Program-made: the position numbers and the translations under genes
In this document: positions 7,257-28,875 of the stretch, in pieces
Layout of the letters: every line of letters starts with the position of its first letter
Numbering within the stretch: the stretch's first letter is position 1
The notes under the pieces: generated by a model
Database searches by the model: none
Told to the model about the DNA's origin: nothing
What the model saw: the letters and a program-made list of their open reading frames with translations, nothing else
Assembly: GCA_023143375.1 (NCBI GenBank)
Contig: JAGLHQ010000130.1
Span: forward strand, 1-35,613
Source: Planctomycetota bacterium
Lineage (GTDB): Bacteria; Planctomycetota; Phycisphaerae; Sedimentisphaerales; Anaerohalosphaeraceae
Length of the DNA: 35,613 nucleotides
Direction of reading: 5' to 3'

Positions 7257-8330
7257 TTATACCTTGTCAGCAAAGAATATCAAAGCTTCTTCTATGTTTT
7301 TGAACACTTTTGTCGCCGTCTGCGTCACAAACACCGACGGCTCCGCCGCCGCCGCCCACACCACAAAAACTTCTTTCCCAGCCTCATAGGCATGTTGCAG
7401 TTCCCTCTCGACACCGCTCGATATCGCCGCTCGCCCGTCAGCCATCGCAGGAATAAAACTGATTATCATATCCGCCTGATCGATCAACGCAAAGTCACGT
7501 GCATATATCTGGCTGTTAATATCAGCCTCGATCTGCTCGATCTCCCCGACCCCAAACGCAACCTTTTCACCAAGCGACGTGATCGTTATTTCTTTTTCAC
7601 CCTTATCCTTCGCTCGTTTCGCACGGCCCGGCAGATACGCCTCCTCAAGGTTCGCCGGATCGAAGCACGTAAACTTCTCCTTCATCACATTACGAAACCC
7701 CTCGATCTCCTTCATCACATCGTCAAGCTCCATCACATGCGTCATCGGGAAGCTAAGATACGCCTTCTTCCTCTCCGCCTCGAACATCAAACGATAAAAC
7801 GTTTCCACCGTCCCTTTTCCCTCCCCCCGCGAGAGGCTGTACACCTCGGCCGTTTCATTCGTCCCACTCCTCATCATCTCCGTCGCAAGCATCTCCTCTT
7901 CACGCCACACAAGCAGATCCTTCAGCGAATGTCGTATCGGATGCTCGCTCGTCAGCCGAACATGCAGCGCGTCAACGCCGTCGATCATACATATATATTT
8001 GTCCGCGCCCAGTTCACGCATCTGGTCGAAATCAAACGCCCTAAACAATCCATGCCTCCAGCGGAACGTCGCGTGCGTATTTACAATAAGGTTCTCTGCC
8101 GATTTGGCTTTAGCGATGATGTCCTTGATAACGCTTCGACGAAGCGTCTCAAGCCGTTTCAGCGGGATGTCGAGTATGTGACCATCGGCAATATCAGGAG
8201 CCTCCGCGTACATCTCGTCGCCAACATTGCACAGGCTGACGCTTTTGCCCCTGCTCTTAGCCAGCGCGACAACGTCTTGAAGATAACGCTTCTTATCGAT
8301 CCCAACCATTCCAGTTACTACTACGATCAT
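7257..8330 (-). CDS. AdkA-like P-loop-fold protein with nucleoside-deoxyribosyltransferase-like C-terminus
   Basis: The N-terminal half (1-150) looks like archaeal-type adenylate kinase or an AAA-type nucleoside kinase: IVVVTGMVGIDKKRYLQ at the start, SVSLCNVGDEMY, then IVNTHATFRW. The Walker A loop is GMVGIDKKR, without the usual GK[ST], so catalysis is uncertain. The C-terminal part (about 280-357) resembles the end of nucleoside 2-deoxyribosyltransferase/TIR-like folds: a DQADMIISFIP strand, then SSGVERELQHAYEAGKEVFV with a glutamate where the transferases place their nucleophile. ATG at 8330 has GGGAG eight bases upstream. A role in nucleotide metabolism is likely but the substrate is unknown; a fusion is an inference. 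Confidence 0.75.
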   Translation of the reverse strand: MIVVVTGMVGIDKKRYLQDVVALAKSRGKSVSLCNVGDEMYAEAPDIADGHILDIPLKRLETLRRSVIKDIIAKAKSAENLIVNTHATFRWRHGLFRAFDFDQMRELGADKYICMIDGVDALHVRLTSEHPIRHSLKDLLVWREEEMLATEMMRSGTNETAEVYSLSRGEGKGTVETFYRLMFEAERKKAYLSFPMTHVMELDDVMKEIEGFRNVMKEKFTCFDPANLEEAYLPGRAKRAKDKGEKEITITSLGEKVAFGVGEIEQIEADINSQIYARDFALIDQADMIISFIPAMADGRAAISSGVERELQHAYEAGKEVFVVWAAAAEPSVFVTQTATKVFKNIEEALIFFADKV

Positions 8331-8540: not shown

Positions 8541-8990
8541 CTATCTATTGTAGTTTATCTCGTCAGGTTTAGGTTTGCTTTTTGGTTTGTAGCTGCTTTT
8601 GGTGCTGGTTACTCTGCGTTTGCTCCCGCCTCCGCTTTTCTTCGGGACTTCACCCTTCATGATCGCAAGGCATTTTATACACGCTGCCTTGGTCGTTTTG
8701 TCCCTGTGCTTGAGTCCCTGTTCGATCGTCTCGGTCGCCAGCTTAAACATCCGCCCCTTCATGCTCCGCATCCCGTACGCCGCTGCCTTTTTAGTCGTAC
8801 GCTCATAGTCTCCGAACAGGGCCTCTTTAAGGATCAAAAGCCCGTCCTCCTGACGCCACGACAACTGATACGCAGCAAGCCGAGCCGTAGATATATTGCG
8901 CGAATGAAGCTTCTCACGCAGCTCACGCAACAGCTTAATGGTTCGCTCGTCACGCTCATACTCACCCGAATTGTCCTTCTCACTGCTCAT
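8541..8990 (-). CDS. HEAT-repeat-like small basic protein, unknown function
   Basis: A 149-residue protein. Residues 30-115 form alternating helices with the alanine-rich spacing of HEAT/PBS-lyase repeats (ARLAAYQLS, TKKAAAYGMRSMKG, TTKAACIKCLAIMKG). From about 118 the tail is a low-complexity Lys/Ser/Arg/Pro region (KKSGGGSKRRVTSTKSSYKP) likely to contact nucleic acid or another acidic partner. ATG at 8990 has GGAG seven bases upstream. It marks the last normal-composition gene before the AT-rich island. Confidence 0.75.
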   Translation of the reverse strand: MSSEKDNSGEYERDERTIKLLRELREKLHSRNISTARLAAYQLSWRQEDGLLILKEALFGDYERTTKKAAAYGMRSMKGRMFKLATETIEQGLKHRDKTTKAACIKCLAIMKGEVPKKSGGGSKRRVTSTKSSYKPKSKPKPDEINYNR

Positions 8991-9160: not shown

Positions 9161-9290
9161 TGTGCCTTTATGTCCGGGGCTTGGCACGTTGCTACAATGG
9201 TCACTACAAAGCGACGCGAGACCGCGAGGTGGAGCAAATCGCAAAAAAGTGGCCTCAGTTCGGATTGCAGGCTGACAACTCAGCCAGAAT
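9161..9290 (+). pseudogene. Degenerate fragment of a 16S rRNA gene
   Basis: The stretch corresponds to the region around E. coli 16S positions 1195-1310. Landmarks in order are GCCTTTATGTCC, GGGCTTGGCACGTTGCTACA, ACAAAGCGACGCGAGACCGC, GAGGTGGAGCAAATCGCAAA and CTCAGTTCGGATTGCAGGCT, then an eroded GACAACTCAGCC. The GGTCACT/AGTGGCC helix arms are still complementary. The ACAAAGCGACGCGAGACC form is typical of planctomycete 16S. The sequence before 9160 and after 9290 no longer matches, so this is an isolated fragment rather than an rRNA operon. It overlaps the 3' end of the opposite-strand 87-residue gene. Confidence 0.85.
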
Positions 9291-9543
9291 GCCCGAATGC
9301 CGATTTGTATTGTATTTCTTCATCCTCCCATCTAATGATAGACTTTAGAGTCTGGAGGTCTTTAAGTTGAGACTGATCCTTATTTGCTATTTTGACAAGT
9401 TTATTGGTTAAAATTTCTGCTACCTGAGAAGAAATATAAAGATCCATTCTTTCATCAGCCAAATACTCTTGGATTAAATTTCCTTCTATTCCTATTTCTT
9501 TGGGCCAAACTAAAACATTACCATTTAACCTGTTTTCTATCAT
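9280..9543 (-). CDS. Unknown 87-residue protein, last gene of the island operon
   Basis: ATG at 9543 has GAGGA about 8 bases upstream. The protein is acidic and soluble-looking, with a helical middle (EILTNKLVKIANKDQSQLKD, then LQTLKSII) that may form a short coiled coil. No family is recognised. It follows the membrane protein by 15 bases. Its last three codons overlap the 16S fragment on the other strand (stop TGA at 9280-9282), so the original C-terminus may have been altered by whatever event brought the two together. Confidence 0.55.
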   Translation of the reverse strand: MIENRLNGNVLVWPKEIGIEGNLIQEYLADERMDLYISSQVAEILTNKLVKIANKDQSQLKDLQTLKSIIRWEDEEIQYKSAFGHSG

Positions 9544-9558
9544 ATTAGTTTTCCTCTA

Positions 9559-10119
9559 TCAGTCATTATCTTTTCTATACTTAAGCATTCGGAATATGGG
9601 CTTTGTCAAAATGAAAACGATGGTTATCGCCACAATAATTCCAAGAACAATTAAAACAAAATTCTGGCCGTAATCGCTTGCCTTATAGAAAACCTCAAAA
9701 GATATTCCTATCACACTTGAAATCAATATACCAGATACAACATAAAGTTCTCGCATTCTTACTTGCGATAATTTCATGTTATCGTTTGGCTTTCCCGAGG
9801 CATCTAATTCAGGCTCTCCTGGTATTTCTAAAACCTTTTTACGAAATCTTATGTCACCATAGCGTGCCCTTATTTGCCACCATACTCTTTTTGAGATATC
9901 ATTTATAATAAAGCCGACAATGTAGCAAAAAAGCACGAAAACAACAAGGCTGAATGTAGAAATAAAACTTCCCAGCGACTTGAGAATCTCGAGATTATTC
10001 TTATCATGATAAAAAGAATACGAAGTTAATATTCCTAAGGCCCTTAATGTACAAACAACCCCAAGTGGGACACCTTGCAAAATAATCCACCAAAACCGTT
10101 CAGTTATTTCTTTGAGCAT
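9559..10119 (-). CDS. Four-helix membrane protein, unknown function (island)
   Basis: The 186-residue protein has four predicted transmembrane segments, about residues 9-30, 48-72, 124-143 and 149-173. A basic loop of roughly 45 residues between helices 2 and 3 (SKRVWWQIRARYGDIRFRKK) is probably cytoplasmic. ATG at 10119 has AGGAGA five bases upstream, and the preceding gene ends 13 bases away, so it is cotranscribed. Codons are A/T-rich like the rest of the island. In such an operon it could be a membrane effector or anchor, but nothing in the sequence proves this. Confidence 0.75.
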   Translation of the reverse strand: MLKEITERFWWIILQGVPLGVVCTLRALGILTSYSFYHDKNNLEILKSLGSFISTFSLVVFVLFCYIVGFIINDISKRVWWQIRARYGDIRFRKKVLEIPGEPELDASGKPNDNMKLSQVRMRELYVVSGILISSVIGISFEVFYKASDYGQNFVLIVLGIIVAITIVFILTKPIFRMLKYRKDND

Positions 10120-10132
10120 TCCATTCTCCTAA

Positions 10133-10825
10133 TTATTTACTTTGTTCATCCATATCAAAAAATTCTTTTTCTCCAATATTTCTCCCTTTTGCATTTTCCT
10201 TTGGGCCAACGCCCACTCTGAGATTTTCAAGGATTGTTGAAATTATATTTACAATTGTATCCAAGGACGGCTTGACACAAGACATTACAGGGTGGCCAAC
10301 ATGTAATAGCTTTTCGTCGTCAACTTTTATACCCGAAATAATATGAGTGCCCTCTGCACAACTCGCAAATTCTTTAATTGATTTCATAATAATCTCGTCA
10401 ATCTCATCGTTATTGTGATCTTCTTTAGATTTAGAGGTCAACCTCAAACATGAGATAAAAAGTTGTGACTTCCCAAACGAGATTCCCTTTTTTTTTGCGT
10501 TTTCACACTCTCTTATAGTTTCTTTAAATATTGGCATCTGTTTAAAAAGCGAAGCTATTATATTCGAATGCCAGCATGTTTGATTAGCTCCGTAGATAAT
10601 TACCATAGCGTTGCAGTTGATATAATCAGTTATCTCGTTTTCCTTAAGAAAAAATGTATCATTAGGAGATGAGGAATACCTAAGACCTGTAGCGTCATCT
10701 GATTCTAATATCACATCTTTATTCAAACATCGAATCCATTTACTTATACCTTCTTTGATATAATCTACTTCATGAGATGATGTAAACATGCCGAAATGAG
10801 GAATAAAAATGCTTGTCTCAGACAT
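10133..10825 (-). CDS. Unknown island protein, possible Rossmann/TIR-like N-terminal half
   Basis: A 230-residue protein starting at ATG 10825, with GGAG nine bases upstream and only two bases after the stop of the synthetase-like gene; a GTG at 10840 would add five residues and overlap the upstream gene. Residues 5-100 have the rhythm of a TIR/deoxyribosyltransferase-like alpha/beta fold: a SIFIPHFGMFTSS strand and loop, a helix, a VILESDD strand, then EITDYINCNAMVIIYGAN followed by CWHSNIIASLF. The C-terminal part (105-215) contains LLHVGHPVMSCVKPS and a Lys/Glu-rich tail. No catalytic motif is certain and the fold call is weak. Confidence 0.7.
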   Translation of the reverse strand: MSETSIFIPHFGMFTSSHEVDYIKEGISKWIRCLNKDVILESDDATGLRYSSSPNDTFFLKENEITDYINCNAMVIIYGANQTCWHSNIIASLFKQMPIFKETIRECENAKKKGISFGKSQLFISCLRLTSKSKEDHNNDEIDEIIMKSIKEFASCAEGTHIISGIKVDDEKLLHVGHPVMSCVKPSLDTIVNIISTILENLRVGVGPKENAKGRNIGEKEFFDMDEQSK

Positions 10826-10827
10826 AA

Positions 10828-11697
10828 CTATATACTCCACTGTTGGAATAAATCATGTATTGTTTCTGATAGAATATTTATATCCTTATCTAAATCAGAG
10901 ATGAAATCTTTCTCATCAAATGAATATGACAGAAAACGCCTAGACATATCTTCATCACAGAGAGATGCAGCCACTACACTTATATGTAAACAATATTCCC
11001 ATATAGATCGATATCGTTGGTCACGAGATTTTTTTAGCAAAGTATAAACCATATCTTTTGATGAATTTGAAAGGTATAATTCACTTCCAGCAAAAAGCCA
11101 TAGCTCAGGCAAATATATTGGACAAATATCAAGAGGTGATTTTTTCATGCTGATTCTTTCAAGCCAATATTGAATATAATATGCCTCGACTTGGCCAATC
11201 AGTAAAAATTGTGCTTTGGAATTATGTGCTTCTAGCAATAGAGCCAGAGCATCTTTGCGACATCCTTTTATCTCATCATCTTGTTCTTCCATTGGCGACA
11301 TAGCTGAAGAGATGGCCTGCTCGTATTTACTGAGAGCACTTGTAAGACAAGTTTCTGATATAGATTCTTTATAATCAGCAAAATGCTCCTGTGTAATCGC
11401 ACGCAAAAAACCCTTGTCTTCCTCGGAAGAATCATTGTCTCTTAAAAAGAAAATGACTTCGACACCTATTTTGAGTAATTGCTCTACTCTTGCAAACAAT
11501 AATATCTGGATGAGTACAGGATCATTGCTTGGTGTTATTGGAACTATCACACATGTTTGTGTTGGTGAAAGTTCCATTATACGATTTCTTGTCCTTGACG
11601 CCTGATCGTGAAAATGAAAATTGACAAAATATGGAAAATATTTTTTGTCATATACCGTCCCCTGAAGCAAGAGATCACTACTGTTTGTTTCACTCAT
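10828..11697 (-). CDS. Class Ic aminoacyl-tRNA-synthetase-like protein lacking HIGH and KMSKS (island)
   Basis: The 289-residue protein aligns by eye with archaeal-type Tyr/Trp-tRNA synthetases. CVIVPITPSNDP (49-60) sits where the PTGxLHxGH strand would be, but the histidines are absent. EQLLKIGVEVIFFLRDND (72-89) matches the following helix-strand. AQFLLIGQVEAYYIQYW (162-178) matches the vGxDQxxHI segment, and YLPELWLFAG (195-204) the pocket before KMSKS. The KMSKS loop is missing: the frame resumes at ELYLSNSSKDMVYTLLKK (206-223). FDEKDFISDLDKDINIL (260-276) fits the C-terminal helices. Cyclodipeptide synthases, also derived from this fold, are an alternative. ATG 11697 has AGGAAGG seven bases upstream. 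Confidence 0.7.
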   Translation of the reverse strand: MSETNSSDLLLQGTVYDKKYFPYFVNFHFHDQASRTRNRIMELSPTQTCVIVPITPSNDPVLIQILLFARVEQLLKIGVEVIFFLRDNDSSEEDKGFLRAITQEHFADYKESISETCLTSALSKYEQAISSAMSPMEEQDDEIKGCRKDALALLLEAHNSKAQFLLIGQVEAYYIQYWLERISMKKSPLDICPIYLPELWLFAGSELYLSNSSKDMVYTLLKKSRDQRYRSIWEYCLHISVVAASLCDEDMSRRFLSYSFDEKDFISDLDKDINILSETIHDLFQQWSI

Positions 11698-11729
11698 TAT
11701 ACGGCCTTCCTATCATGAGGAATTTGTAA

Positions 11730-12707
11730 TTATTTATGTTTTTTGATAACTCTAGCAACCTTACGAGATATTGTTTTTTCAGAGATTGCGCATGGGGGAT
11801 CAGTGTCGGTCACAGGTACCTTAAATGTCATTCCAAATTTCTTCATTAGAACTCGATTGCTGTCTAATCCATATACAATTTTAGTCACAGGAAAACCTGC
11901 TTGGTCAACAGGCACGTGAAATTCCGAAATCTCAATCATATCACTATAAAATGCCACTGTATAATATCGGCACACTGCCCCAGATACTATAGCCGATGAT
12001 AAGGGGTCTTGCAAATTATCATTCATGAAAGTTAACAGTGAACCCGCATTGAGACAAGGGGTTCCCTCAACAATGTCAACCCCGGCACCTTCATGAATAT
12101 GCCCACAAATTAGAATATTAGGTTTTTTCTTTATATTTCTTAGAAAATCGCGGATACCAATACTGCCAATATGATTTGTTGTTTCCGAATGTATATCTAG
12201 ATAACATTTTTGAGGCGGAGAATGTGTAAGCAATATTCGAGTTTGCGCCTTATTCCACTTTGACAGAGCACGAGGCGGAATAGTTACACGATCACTTTTC
12301 CACTCATATGGCCATAAACCCATTCCAGGACTACCGCCAATGCCTAAAAATGAAATTCCATTGGATGAAAAAGGTGCACTTCCTAAAAGGACATCAACAT
12401 TACGCAACTTACCTTTTAGGTGCCGTTCCTTGCGGAAAAATTCTTTTCTGTCATGATTGCCAGGCACAAACAAGAGAGGTTTTTTAAGTTTAGCAATTGC
12501 TGAGAGAATTGCATTTGTCTGTATTTCATATAGTTGCTTGCGAAGTTTATTTGTCATTTCAATGTCACCCATGACATCTGGGCCGATATCACCTGTGCAA
12601 ACCATAAAATCAACATCATGGTTAGATGCATGACAAATAGTATTTAAAAGAACAATACTATCTCCATGTATGTCCCCGAAAACCAGAATTTTTGTTATTG
12701 GTTTCAT
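11730..12707 (-). CDS. Calcineurin-like metallophosphoesterase (island)
   Basis: All five metal-binding motifs are present: FGDIHGD (D12, H14), CTGDIG (D40), VPGNHDR (N84, H85), LLTHSPP (H162) and CGHIHEG (H203, H205). The protein should hydrolyse a phosphomono- or diester using two metal ions. The THSPP...GHIHEG pattern is common in archaeal phosphoesterases. The C-terminal 80 residues form a beta-rich then basic tail (SRKVARVIKKHK). ATG at 12707 is chosen because AGGTGGA lies five bases upstream; the frame extends to 12731 into the preceding gene but without a ribosome site. Only ten bases separate it from the nucleotidyltransferase, so it may reverse or process that enzyme's product. Confidence 0.9.
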   Translation of the reverse strand: MKPITKILVFGDIHGDSIVLLNTICHASNHDVDFMVCTGDIGPDVMGDIEMTNKLRKQLYEIQTNAILSAIAKLKKPLLFVPGNHDRKEFFRKERHLKGKLRNVDVLLGSAPFSSNGISFLGIGGSPGMGLWPYEWKSDRVTIPPRALSKWNKAQTRILLTHSPPQKCYLDIHSETTNHIGSIGIRDFLRNIKKKPNILICGHIHEGAGVDIVEGTPCLNAGSLLTFMNDNLQDPLSSAIVSGAVCRYYTVAFYSDMIEISEFHVPVDQAGFPVTKIVYGLDSNRVLMKKFGMTFKVPVTDTDPPCAISEKTISRKVARVIKKHK

Positions 12708-12717
12708 GCTAATCCAC

Positions 12718-14514
12718 CTAAACATTACCATTTGTTACTATATTCATTAGGTTTTGATGTATGAAATCAAAATCTTTTGTTATAGACATTTGGCTTTTTC
12801 CTTCAAGCCTATATGAATCGCTACAAATTAATAAGTCGTGAACATCAATTTCGACTGGATTTTTAGAAAATTTCCCGTTTTTAAGTTTGTCAAAACGAAG
12901 CATAGTTTGATTTGTTTTATATTGCAAAGGTAAAACCACAGCGCCATTATTGCCAATGGATACTAACCATTTGTGGTCAGTATGTTTAAATTCAAATAAT
13001 TGAGAGTTAGAGATAGTTAATATTTCTACAATACGCTCGATGGCTTTAATAGCCTTGATAGAATATAGTTCTATTTCAAATAGATGTTTCTTTGTAGAAT
13101 ATTTGCCTTCCTTCGCCTTGTTTTCTAAGTCTGACAAATGTGATAACAATTCAGAAATTGTTTTGTTAGGCACAGGGAGTTGCGACAAAAACAAATTGAT
13201 TTCTGCTCTTTTCAGTCTACCTTTAAAGGTGACACTGAGAGCATTTACATAGCCATTGAAGTTAGACAAGACAAACTCCATAAGTTGCCTCAGTTTTGCT
13301 TCCCTATTTTCTTTCTGAATCTGTTTATGGAATTTGGAAAACACCTTCTGAGCTTCTTGCACCTCTTTATAAAGAGTGGAGATTTCATTTGGAGATAACC
13401 GTTTCCGTTCTCCATACTCAAGCTTTTTGCGAATAAGTACAACTTTCGATAGAGTCTTAAACGCTGTTCGCGAAAATGAATATGGTTTCTTAAGGAAATC
13501 ATTCTTGAACGTTTGGACCGTTTCCTGTGGTGTTAAAGGAGGATGTCCTTTTATTAACAGGATCGCCTGAGCATAATTCAATAGAGAATAGTACAATTGC
13601 TCTGGCCCGACTTTCGATATAAGCCAGCCAGCATCATTAAAAGCGGAATTTGCTCCCTCTATCAAAGCTTCGTCGGATTCTAAAGAAGGTTTTATACGGC
13701 CAGTGCGAAGCATCTTCTTCCATGGAGTTATTAGTCCTTTATCGTAAAGAGGGACTGCATCGCGAAGCAAGGTGTAGATTACAGGGCTACCGTTCTTCAA
13801 TGATTCCCAAAAATGTGTAAGCACATAAAGTTGCGAATTAATGTTCAGTTCAATATCAAATTGTGCTGCAAGTTCATCGCCCATTTTAATGATAATATTA
13901 TGCAACTTATCCCTTAATTCAGCCAAAGGCATTCTTTTAACATCAGTGTCATCTAAAATACAGAAAACATCAAGGTCGCTTTTGGAAGTACTAGTCCCCC
14001 GGACGCTGGAGCCCGAAAAGCAGTAACATACAACATATTTTTCAAATTTTTTCATGACCTTTTTTTTGTGATGAAGTGCAAGAATGAATGTAACTAAAAA
14101 ATTACTATCTGCAACTAATACCCCCCCCATAAATCGAATTATCATACTTGGTTGAACTGTACTATCAACACATATTTCCCACAAAGCCGAAACATGAATG
14201 ATTTCAGGATGTTTTTTCCCTAAGTTGCATTTTTTGAAAGATTTGCCAATAACTTCTTCACGTTTTTTTGCTATCTTCCCAACATTTTTAGAAGTTATGT
14301 CGGAAACAATAACAGCTACTTCACAAGATTGCTTTCGCTTTTTAGTCTTTCCCCCATCATCATCTTCTTCTTCTGGCAGCAAGACTAAAACACCCACTAA
14401 ATCGTCGCCTAATTTGGTTTTTATTTCGGCTGCAAATTTTTCTAATTTGACCTTATGACGACGAAAAAAATTGAGCGGTTCTTTAGCCGCAAATGGATTT
14501 TGCTTTGTCAACAT
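12718..14514 (-). CDS. Large nucleotidyltransferase with Pol-beta fold, archaeal-like (first gene of island)
   Basis: The 598-residue protein contains a Pol-beta-type nucleotidyltransferase core at about 155-260: FSGSSVRGTSTSKSDLDVFC holds the GS loop (G168, S169) and the two metal carboxylates D180 and D182, with D220 or E222 the probable third. HFWESLKNGSPVIYTLLRD and VPLYDKGLITPWKKML are the family continuation I associate with archaeal nucleotidyltransferases, followed by a HEPN-like helical region (270-400). Residues 20-150 look like a second, eroded domain (LVGVLVLLPEEE...CEVAVIVSD). The tail (400-598) is unrecognised. It transfers a nucleotide to RNA, protein or a small molecule; the target is unknown. 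It heads the six-gene operon. Confidence 0.85.
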   Translation of the reverse strand: MLTKQNPFAAKEPLNFFRRHKVKLEKFAAEIKTKLGDDLVGVLVLLPEEEDDDGGKTKKRKQSCEVAVIVSDITSKNVGKIAKKREEVIGKSFKKCNLGKKHPEIIHVSALWEICVDSTVQPSMIIRFMGGVLVADSNFLVTFILALHHKKKVMKKFEKYVVCYCFSGSSVRGTSTSKSDLDVFCILDDTDVKRMPLAELRDKLHNIIIKMGDELAAQFDIELNINSQLYVLTHFWESLKNGSPVIYTLLRDAVPLYDKGLITPWKKMLRTGRIKPSLESDEALIEGANSAFNDAGWLISKVGPEQLYYSLLNYAQAILLIKGHPPLTPQETVQTFKNDFLKKPYSFSRTAFKTLSKVVLIRKKLEYGERKRLSPNEISTLYKEVQEAQKVFSKFHKQIQKENREAKLRQLMEFVLSNFNGYVNALSVTFKGRLKRAEINLFLSQLPVPNKTISELLSHLSDLENKAKEGKYSTKKHLFEIELYSIKAIKAIERIVEILTISNSQLFEFKHTDHKWLVSIGNNGAVVLPLQYKTNQTMLRFDKLKNGKFSKNPVEIDVHDLLICSDSYRLEGKSQMSITKDFDFIHQNLMNIVTNGNV

Positions 14515-14871
14515 TATTAATGCTTTCTCAAATTTAATCTCTAATGTTTAGTCAACAAGATATTTCTCACGTGCAATACAAACTCGTCTTGCCACTAATA
14601 GGAAGTGAAACAAATACTACAGTAGCGTATATGCTATACAGGATATATTTCTACGTCAAGAGTTTTTTTGACTAAAAACTCGTCTATACGGACAAATAAC
14701 TACCTGCAAGCAGGAAATCACCTGTTCCAATTTTTGTCACTCTCTTTTTTTACTTAGGTTGCATCCTTTTTTTATGGCAGTCAGAATTGAGGCATGAGCA
14801 AAGATGACAAAATAATACAGACGGATTTTGTGCTTCAGATTTCGTATTTGAGCAGCAAGCCCCAAAGGCTG
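14515..14871. other. AT-rich spacer at the right edge of the island
   Basis: No gene seen. It holds a candidate island promoter (14631-14659), an inverted pair TTTAGTCAA (14548-14556) and TTGACTAAA (14668-14676), and a direct repeat AAACTCGTCT at 14580-14589 and 14676-14685. Composition returns to normal after about 14860, which makes this the likely right boundary of the transferred block. Confidence 0.5.
14631..14659 (-). promoter_or_regulatory. Candidate promoter for the island operon
   Basis: On the minus strand TTGACG (14654-14659) is followed after 17 bases by TAGCAT (14631-14636). It would start transcription about 110 bases before the nucleotidyltransferase ATG. The -10 match is only moderate. 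Confidence 0.4.
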
Positions 14872-27909: not shown

Positions 27910-28875
27910 ATGAAGCTTAGCAGGACAAGCAGACTGATACGGATCTTAACAATGCTTCAATCCGCCCGGCACTACTCAGCCGGCCAACTGGCGGATATTC
28001 TCGGCATCAGCAAGCGCACCGTCTATCGGGATCTAAACGAACTCGAAGCGGCAGGAATACCATACCAATTCGACACCCTCGTCGGCGGATACGCCATTGA
28101 GCCGGAATATTTCCTGCCGTCGGTCGATTTCAATATGCAGGAAGCGCTTGCCTTACTGATGCTGATACAAAAGACCAGCGGCCACCTGCCGCTGCCGTTT
28201 AAGAATGCGGCGCTGATGGCAGGGCTAAAGATCGAGAATAATCTGCCGGCGGAGCTTAAACGGTATTGCAACGCAACGCTGGAAAATGTTTCGATCCGGC
28301 CGGACTCACACGCACCGATGGAGATGCTGGACAAGGTGTTCGCAAAGCTGCAAATGGCCATCCGAAAAAAACGTAAGGTAAAGCTCCATTACGCTTCGGT
28401 CTTCGACGGCAAAGATATTAGCACGACGCTAAGCCCGTATCACCTGACATATAACAACCGCGCGTGGTACATCATCGGCCATTCCAGTGTGCATAAGGAG
28501 ATGCGAACATTTAAGCTGAACCGCATCAAGAAGCTTAATGTTCTGGACAAGTGTTTTGTAGTAGATAAAAAGTTCGAGTACCAGGACTACTTCGGCAAGG
28601 CGTGGTCCATGATCCCGGAAGGAAAGCTCTATCACGTAAAGCTAAAGTTCACTAAAAGAGTTGCCCGCAACGTAGCAGAGGTGACATGGCACAGCTCGCA
28701 AAAAACAACCCGCCACAGCGACAGGTCGGTAACCCTTGAGTTCGTCGTTGACGGCATCGGCGAGATCGGATGGTGGATCCTCGGCTACGGAGATCAGGTA
28801 GAGGTCATCACACCGAAAAAACTAAGAAGCAAGATCGCAAAAAAAGCAAAGAACATGGCAAAAATAAATTCATAA
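27910..28875 (+). CDS. HTH-WYL transcriptional regulator
   Basis: The 321-residue protein begins with a helix-turn-helix (residues 5-58: YSAGQLADILGISKRTVYRD, LNELEAAGIP), followed by a WYL domain at about 140-215 (ISTTLSPYHLTYNNRAWYII, FKLNRIKKL) and the C-terminal extension GEIGWWILGYGDQVEVI. WYL proteins sense ligands, in some cases nucleic acids, and regulate many stress and defence genes. It is transcribed away from the c-di-AMP operon and may regulate it; this is an inference from position only. Confidence 0.92.
   Translation: MKLSRTSRLIRILTMLQSARHYSAGQLADILGISKRTVYRDLNELEAAGIPYQFDTLVGGYAIEPEYFLPSVDFNMQEALALLMLIQKTSGHLPLPFKNAALMAGLKIENNLPAELKRYCNATLENVSIRPDSHAPMEMLDKVFAKLQMAIRKKRKVKLHYASVFDGKDISTTLSPYHLTYNNRAWYIIGHSSVHKEMRTFKLNRIKKLNVLDKCFVVDKKFEYQDYFGKAWSMIPEGKLYHVKLKFTKRVARNVAEVTWHSSQKTTRHSDRSVTLEFVVDGIGEIGWWILGYGDQVEVITPKKLRSKIAKKAKNMAKINS

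Follow-up and report, generated by a model that had tools for sequence, protein, structure and literature searches.

The subject of this analysis is a six-gene operon on the minus strand of a contig from a Planctomycetota bacterium (JAGLHQ010000130.1 of assembly GCA_023143375.1; the window is the whole 35,613-nucleotide stretch), and above all its first gene, which encodes a 598-amino-acid nucleotidyltransferase (NTase). On sequence grounds, gene 1 is a bacterial offshoot of an enzyme that is near-universal, and uncharacterised, in DPANN archaea, and a variant of the MNT-HEPN kind. It is very probable that the protein belongs to the long-form family of these archaea and has an archaeal root; the best reading is that it came from a DPANN archaeon and then diverged quickly. 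The AT-rich stretch in which it lies is, by its composition, best explained as foreign, a transferred island carrying one operon. The features are as follows.

12718-14514, minus strand: gene 1, 598 amino acids, NTase-HEPN protein of the DPANN long-form type (profile, fold and tree)
11730-12707, minus strand: gene 2, calcineurin-type metallophosphoesterase of about 325 amino acids (Metallophos match, motifs)
10828-11697, minus strand: gene 3, soluble orphan, 289 amino acids (no family or PDB match)
10133-10825, minus strand: gene 4, soluble orphan of about 230 amino acids (sub-threshold family matches only)
9559-10119, minus strand: gene 5, membrane protein, 186 amino acids (hydropathy)
9280-9543, minus strand: gene 6, small orphan, 87 amino acids (open reading frame; weak phrog_35945 match)
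9164-9291, plus strand: decayed 16S ribosomal RNA (rRNA) fragment, 128 nucleotides, at the low-coordinate island edge (sequence identity, Rfam)
14515-14860, no strand: AT-rich upstream region, reaching to where the composition changes at the high-coordinate end (GC profile)

In gene 1 Pfam recognises a nucleotidyltransferase domain only (E value 1.7e-5). Relatives were collected in a scan of 84,980 species steered by motifs; the steering variants were typed by hand and, not being real sequences, do not count as evidence. Each match held up in tblastn with the real gene 1 protein, giving 378 confirmed relatives. The best 80 of these 378 are records of Woesearchaeota, Nanoarchaeota and other DPANN archaea (one of them mislabelled), with E values of 1e-66 to 1e-74 and 31-38% identity; weaker bacterial members may sit among the 298 ranked lower. 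The odd record, “Candidatus Aminicenantes bacterium” (AB_1215_Bin_51), was rejected as bacterial: its gene sits within Woesearchaeota in the tree, the record is grouped with that phylum, and the label is therefore taken to be wrong. A profile made from 22 archaeal members alone matches residues 18-499 of gene 1 with 326.7 bits. The family profile (A2) matches 277 of 279 sampled genomes of the Woesearchaeota/Nanoarchaeota phylum; in around 240 of the 279 the match is strong (E < 1e-100) and corresponds to the long form, and the remaining matches are weaker and mostly to a shorter paralogue of about 255-380 amino acids. On the bacterial side, the family is present in 1 of 161 genomes of the host order, that of the window itself, which is also the sole genome with a full-length match among 392 from the host phylum.

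Phylogenetic trees place gene 1 in the same family. Over the NTase-HEPN region the archaeal long form and gene 1 make up one group, apart from the short paralogues, with support of 100/99, and in both trees gene 1 falls inside the long form, beside the Woesearchaeota core (support 95/77 and 90/55). Its branch is long, 1.9-2.2 in the trimmed trees; these include the short paralogues and replaced a first full-length tree in which the gene 1 branch had a length of 10. Many positions conserved at 99% or more in the archaeal set are altered in gene 1, and therefore it is not an ordinary archaeal copy. Its grouping with the long form points to cross-domain transfer followed by rapid change.

One NTase domain occurs twice in tandem in gene 1, at residues 20-150 and again at 148-290 (hhalign probability 99.1). 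The first copy is degenerate and lacks the GS and DXD residues; the second has G168 and S169, then ten residues, then D180-L-D182, an exact GSX10DXD, the motif that MntA uses when it adds three adenosine monophosphates (AMPs) to HepT (PMC7641770). From about residue 300 to 400 follows a HEPN-like helical domain, matched by AF0298 both by profile (E value 0.0027) and by fold (TMt 0.77, root-mean-square deviation 2.4 Å), and the C-terminal part is predicted to be helical and beta. At the HEPN site gene 1 reads R362-KKLE-Y367-G-E369, which does not conform to RX4HXY, and the aligned site of AF0298 reads REESDY. The long members from Woesearchaeota mostly have R-x4-H (78 of 79 for each residue), and in other DPANN lineages the site is Y-x4-H or R-x4-Y, so that the arginine is not universal in archaea. 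Since gene 1 departs from RX4HXY and the archaeal arginine is itself variable, RNase activity of gene 1 is doubtful and is not claimed. The best solved-fold neighbours of the gene 1 model are AAD(9), kanamycin nucleotidyltransferase and ANT enzymes, with HalB and the MNT antitoxins next; for the aminoglycoside adenylyltransferases the modelled match has 10-13% identity and a TMt of about 0.5. The original prediction, made from the letters alone, had taken gene 1 for a Pol-beta-type nucleotidyltransferase other than a CD-NTase, and the Pfam match agrees with this; identity as a CBASS CD-NTase was rejected, as no CD-NTase family was returned from Pfam, PADLOC or NCBIfam.

Gene 1 therefore shares with the DPANN long form its full-length similarity, the tandem NTases with the first degenerate, the GSX10DXD motif and the HEPN-like domain. 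It differs in residing in a bacterium, on a long branch, with changed invariant positions and with R-x4-Y in place of R-x4-H. Its operon partners are likewise missing from the archaeal neighbourhoods, where the common neighbour is instead a CBS-domain gene: at 35 of 80 loci a gene downstream of the long form falls in one and the same cluster, and the member tested has two CBS domains. Adenosine nucleotides are common ligands of CBS domains. An MNT-HEPN fusion specific to DPANN, cls.004259 / NEQ050, has been described by Makarova et al. (2019) as unusually conserved, unsolved and in a housekeeping context (PMC6393860). It resembles the present family in the fusion of MNT to HEPN, in wide conservation across DPANN and in having no known function; cls.004259 may be either the long form or the short paralogue. 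The long form is near-core in a phylum of archaea that are difficult to culture, and the literature found gives it no function.

The operon consists of six intact, collinear open reading frames on the minus strand at 9280-14514, with no internal stops. From gene 1 to gene 6 the gaps are 10, 32, 2, 13 and 15 bases, given the likely starts of genes 2 and 4, which were chosen by reading the sequence: for gene 2 the ATG at 12707, with AGGTGG upstream (the frame is open from 12731), and for gene 4 the ATG at 10825 (open from a GTG at 10840). Gene 4 follows gene 3 after 2 bases and is coupled to it. Shine-Dalgarno-like sequences lie 5' of genes 2, 3, 5 and 6, and gene 1 has a weak one only. The GC content of the operon is 0.34-0.38 as against about 0.49 in the flanks, and at third codon positions (GC3) the six genes range from 0.27 to 0.34 and the 20 flanking genes from 0.42 to 0.65; the ranges are disjoint, with an exact rank probability of about 4e-6. 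It is clear that the six minus-strand genes with gaps of 2-32 bases, and codons richer in A/T than those of the flanks, are as first described. The suggestion that the genes had been transferred also stands, on GC, on GC3 and on the rarity of the family in the host order and phylum.

The host assembly is a draft (85.6% complete, 409 contigs), and both flanks are bacterial chromosome, with genes for ScpB, anthranilate synthase, an EngA-type GTPase, CstA, a histidine kinase and a sulfatase. In a fine GC profile the AT-rich composition reaches beyond gene 1 into the upstream region and ends at about 14850, the high-coordinate edge of the island; promoter-like sites in 14515-14860 show no excess over shuffled sequence. 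At the other edge the 16S fragment, antisense to the operon and with non-rRNA sequence on either side, coincides exactly with the change in composition. It is 87-91% identical to 16S-like sequence in genomes of the same family, and against the Rfam model SSU_rRNA_bacteria it has an E value of 2e-10, with a score under the gathering cut-off, at E. coli-like model positions of about 1229-1310. The matched sequence stops at both ends, and the fragment bears an insertion or deletion within a stretch that the compared relatives conserve; this speaks for an old scar and against a bridge made in assembly. It also covers the final codons of gene 6 (9280-9291), so that the C-terminus of gene 6 may not be original. 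Terminal repeats at the island edges amount to a 9-base chance match. The order of the flanking genes is not conserved within the host family and there is therefore no empty site for comparison.

Among the partners of gene 1 the most readily recognised is gene 2, which had been called a calcineurin-type phosphoesterase and indeed matches Metallophos with an E value of 4.3e-16, with the motifs GDIHGD, GD, GNHD, THSPP and CGHIH intact. It also matches the PADLOC candidate PDC-S10 (E value 4e-17), a match that could reflect a generic phosphoesterase, and gene 2 is equally distant from its DPANN relatives and from those in the host class (E values 5e-16 and 5e-15). The membrane protein of the original prediction can be identified with gene 5, which by hydropathy is multi-pass, with about four hydrophobic spans (12-31, 45-77, 125-145 and 149-180); it weakly matches NCBIfam BA5345_fam, under the cut-off of that model. 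Gene 3 had been thought a synthetase-like, RNA-binding protein, an assignment that found no backing: it has no Pfam family at E values up to 10, that of class I aminoacyl-tRNA synthetases included, and no PDB match, and a single-sequence AlphaFold2 model of it was unusable (pLDDT 38). Family matches of gene 4 are all sub-threshold, and on comparison genes 3 and 4 were rejected as paralogues of each other. Gene 6 weakly matches phrog_35945, a phage protein family of unknown function (E value 8e-4).

What such an operon might do can be stated tentatively. The leading explanation, possible rather than probable, is that gene 1 is a captured DPANN long-form NTase and that the operon acts in stress or defence as a control module which writes and erases a nucleotidyl mark. 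In the manner of MntA-type enzymes, gene 1 would mark a protein, an RNA or a nucleotide with AMP or a short oligo-AMP; gene 2 would remove the mark or degrade the gene 1 product; and the orphan genes 3 and 4 and the membrane protein of gene 5 would serve as target, sensor or effector. The profile and tree placement of gene 1, its best solved matches to folds that join an NTase to a helical domain, the exact GSX10DXD, the HEPN match, the adjoining phosphoesterase with its motifs, the tight spacing and the shared composition are all consistent with this. A fuller version, in which this is a new bacterial signalling or defence module built around a captured DPANN MNT-HEPN protein, with gene 1 marking, gene 2 erasing and genes 3-5 leading to a membrane response, is distinctly less likely. 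A bacterial copy, beside a phosphoesterase that perhaps takes part in the same chemistry, offers a testable handle on the function of the long form; should the pair write and erase, bacteria would have a new nucleotidyl-signalling system whose root is archaeal.

Several observations weigh against a captured archaeal enzyme at work in a write-and-erase module. A tree in which gene 1 branches off just outside the archaeal members narrowly escapes rejection (p-AU 0.06). A third catalytic carboxylate is not evident, N226 and Q228 being invariant; the gene 1 model is of moderate quality only (pLDDT 66, pTM 0.50); and genes 3-6 give no functional hint. Beside 80 archaeal copies of the family there is no adjacent phosphoesterase and there are no homologues of genes 2-6. 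The original prediction had looked to the recurrence of the NTase-esterase pair in other genomes and took a complete lack of co-occurrence as refuting it; no second pair of genes 1 and 2, nor a copy of the operon, was found in anything searched, bacteria outside the host phylum being poorly sampled; the write-and-erase reading is therefore without its key comparative evidence. Further, the contig might be chimeric, though this is unlikely.

The searches behind these statements, in some of which the operon proteins were run as a single query joined by X linkers, covered a range of sources. Gene 1 was not found in the 98 nearest genomes by single-sequence search; genes 1, 3 and 4 were absent from plasmids and, beyond the window's own genome, from the 392 genomes of the host phylum searched by sequence; gene 1 was absent from phage records, and genes 1-4 from IMG/VR viral contigs; for genes 2, 5 and 6 nothing closely related turned up among 248 genomes of the host class. 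In 40 DPANN genomes there were generic phosphoesterases only, and nothing for genes 3 and 4. Derivation of the whole operon from a known DPANN context was rejected, the archaeal loci having no homologues of genes 2-6.

Four other explanations were considered. The six genes may have no joint function, being either unrelated acquired genes or part of a chimeric contig that holds a piece of another genome. This is somewhat unlikely; it would fit an arrangement seen in a single genome, with no co-occurrence found elsewhere, with orphans for genes 3, 4 and 6 and a 16S fragment at one edge, but the tight spacing (2 bases between genes 3 and 4), the shared composition and the lack of internal stops speak for a unit. 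A chimera would need two joins, because both flanks are chromosome of similar composition, and the 16S fragment is decayed, with non-rRNA sequence on both sides. Alternatively, gene 1 could derive from an MNT-HEPN toxin-antitoxin, as a self-controlled fusion in which the NTase regulates the HEPN domain and the phosphoesterase resets it. A GSX10DXD NTase and a HEPN domain are what type VII MntA/HepT consists of (PMC7641770); in gene 1 the motif is exact and the HEPN-like domain is recovered by profile and by fold, and DPANN MNT-HEPN fusions have been described (PMC6393860). Gene 1, however, is one fused 598-amino-acid protein, scores 15.3 of 60 bits against the NCBIfam MntA model, far under the cut-off, and has R-x4-Y-x-E instead of RX4HXY, in a family whose archaeal arginine varies, so that an RNase is doubtful; furthermore, near-universal presence in archaea is unlike the patchy occurrence of toxin-antitoxin genes. 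On balance this derivation is unlikely.

An anti-phage function, which had also been suggested, is not supported. In a system with Hailong-like logic gene 1 would make the signal, gene 5 would be the membrane effector and gene 2 the off-switch. Like Hailong, the operon combines an NTase with a membrane protein, HalB is among the gene 1 fold matches, gene 2 matches PDC-S10 and the island is foreign and rare; however, this operon has four further genes, and the HalB and MntA models are far under their cut-offs (membership of gene 1 in Hailong HalB was rejected at 13.4 of 190 bits in NCBIfam). A scan of flanking proteins revealed no defence system and no copy was met on the phages, plasmids or viral contigs searched. 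The one match in favour of such a function, that of gene 2 to PDC-S10, is possibly generic; a system of this kind is quite unlikely. Finally, gene 1 could adenylylate a drug or metabolite as the aminoglycoside and spectinomycin adenylyltransferases (AAD(9), ANT, AadA) do, the other genes being loosely linked cargo. These enzymes also pair an NTase with a helical domain and include the best solved folds, AAD(9), kanamycin nucleotidyltransferase and the ANT enzymes. Yet the fold matches are distant, as given above, NCBIfam ANT(4')-I reaches 14 of 350 bits, far under its cut-off, gene 1 has a tandem NTase architecture which those enzymes do not, and a family near-universal in an archaeal phylum of reduced genomes is unlike a resistance gene; small-molecule modification is accordingly improbable.

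Outside the island, 27910-28875 (plus strand) encodes a WYL/WCX-domain transcriptional regulator of a type that PADLOC lists as CRISPR-associated, with no CRISPR genes recognised adjoining. Two minus-strand genes lie in the flank below the island; both occur across the host family, where they are not next to each other. That at 8541-8990 encodes a small HEAT-repeat-like protein, and that at 7257-8330 a protein that joins a kinase-like AAA_17 part to a weakly nucleoside deoxyribosyltransferase-like C-terminus and is 60-72% identical across the family.

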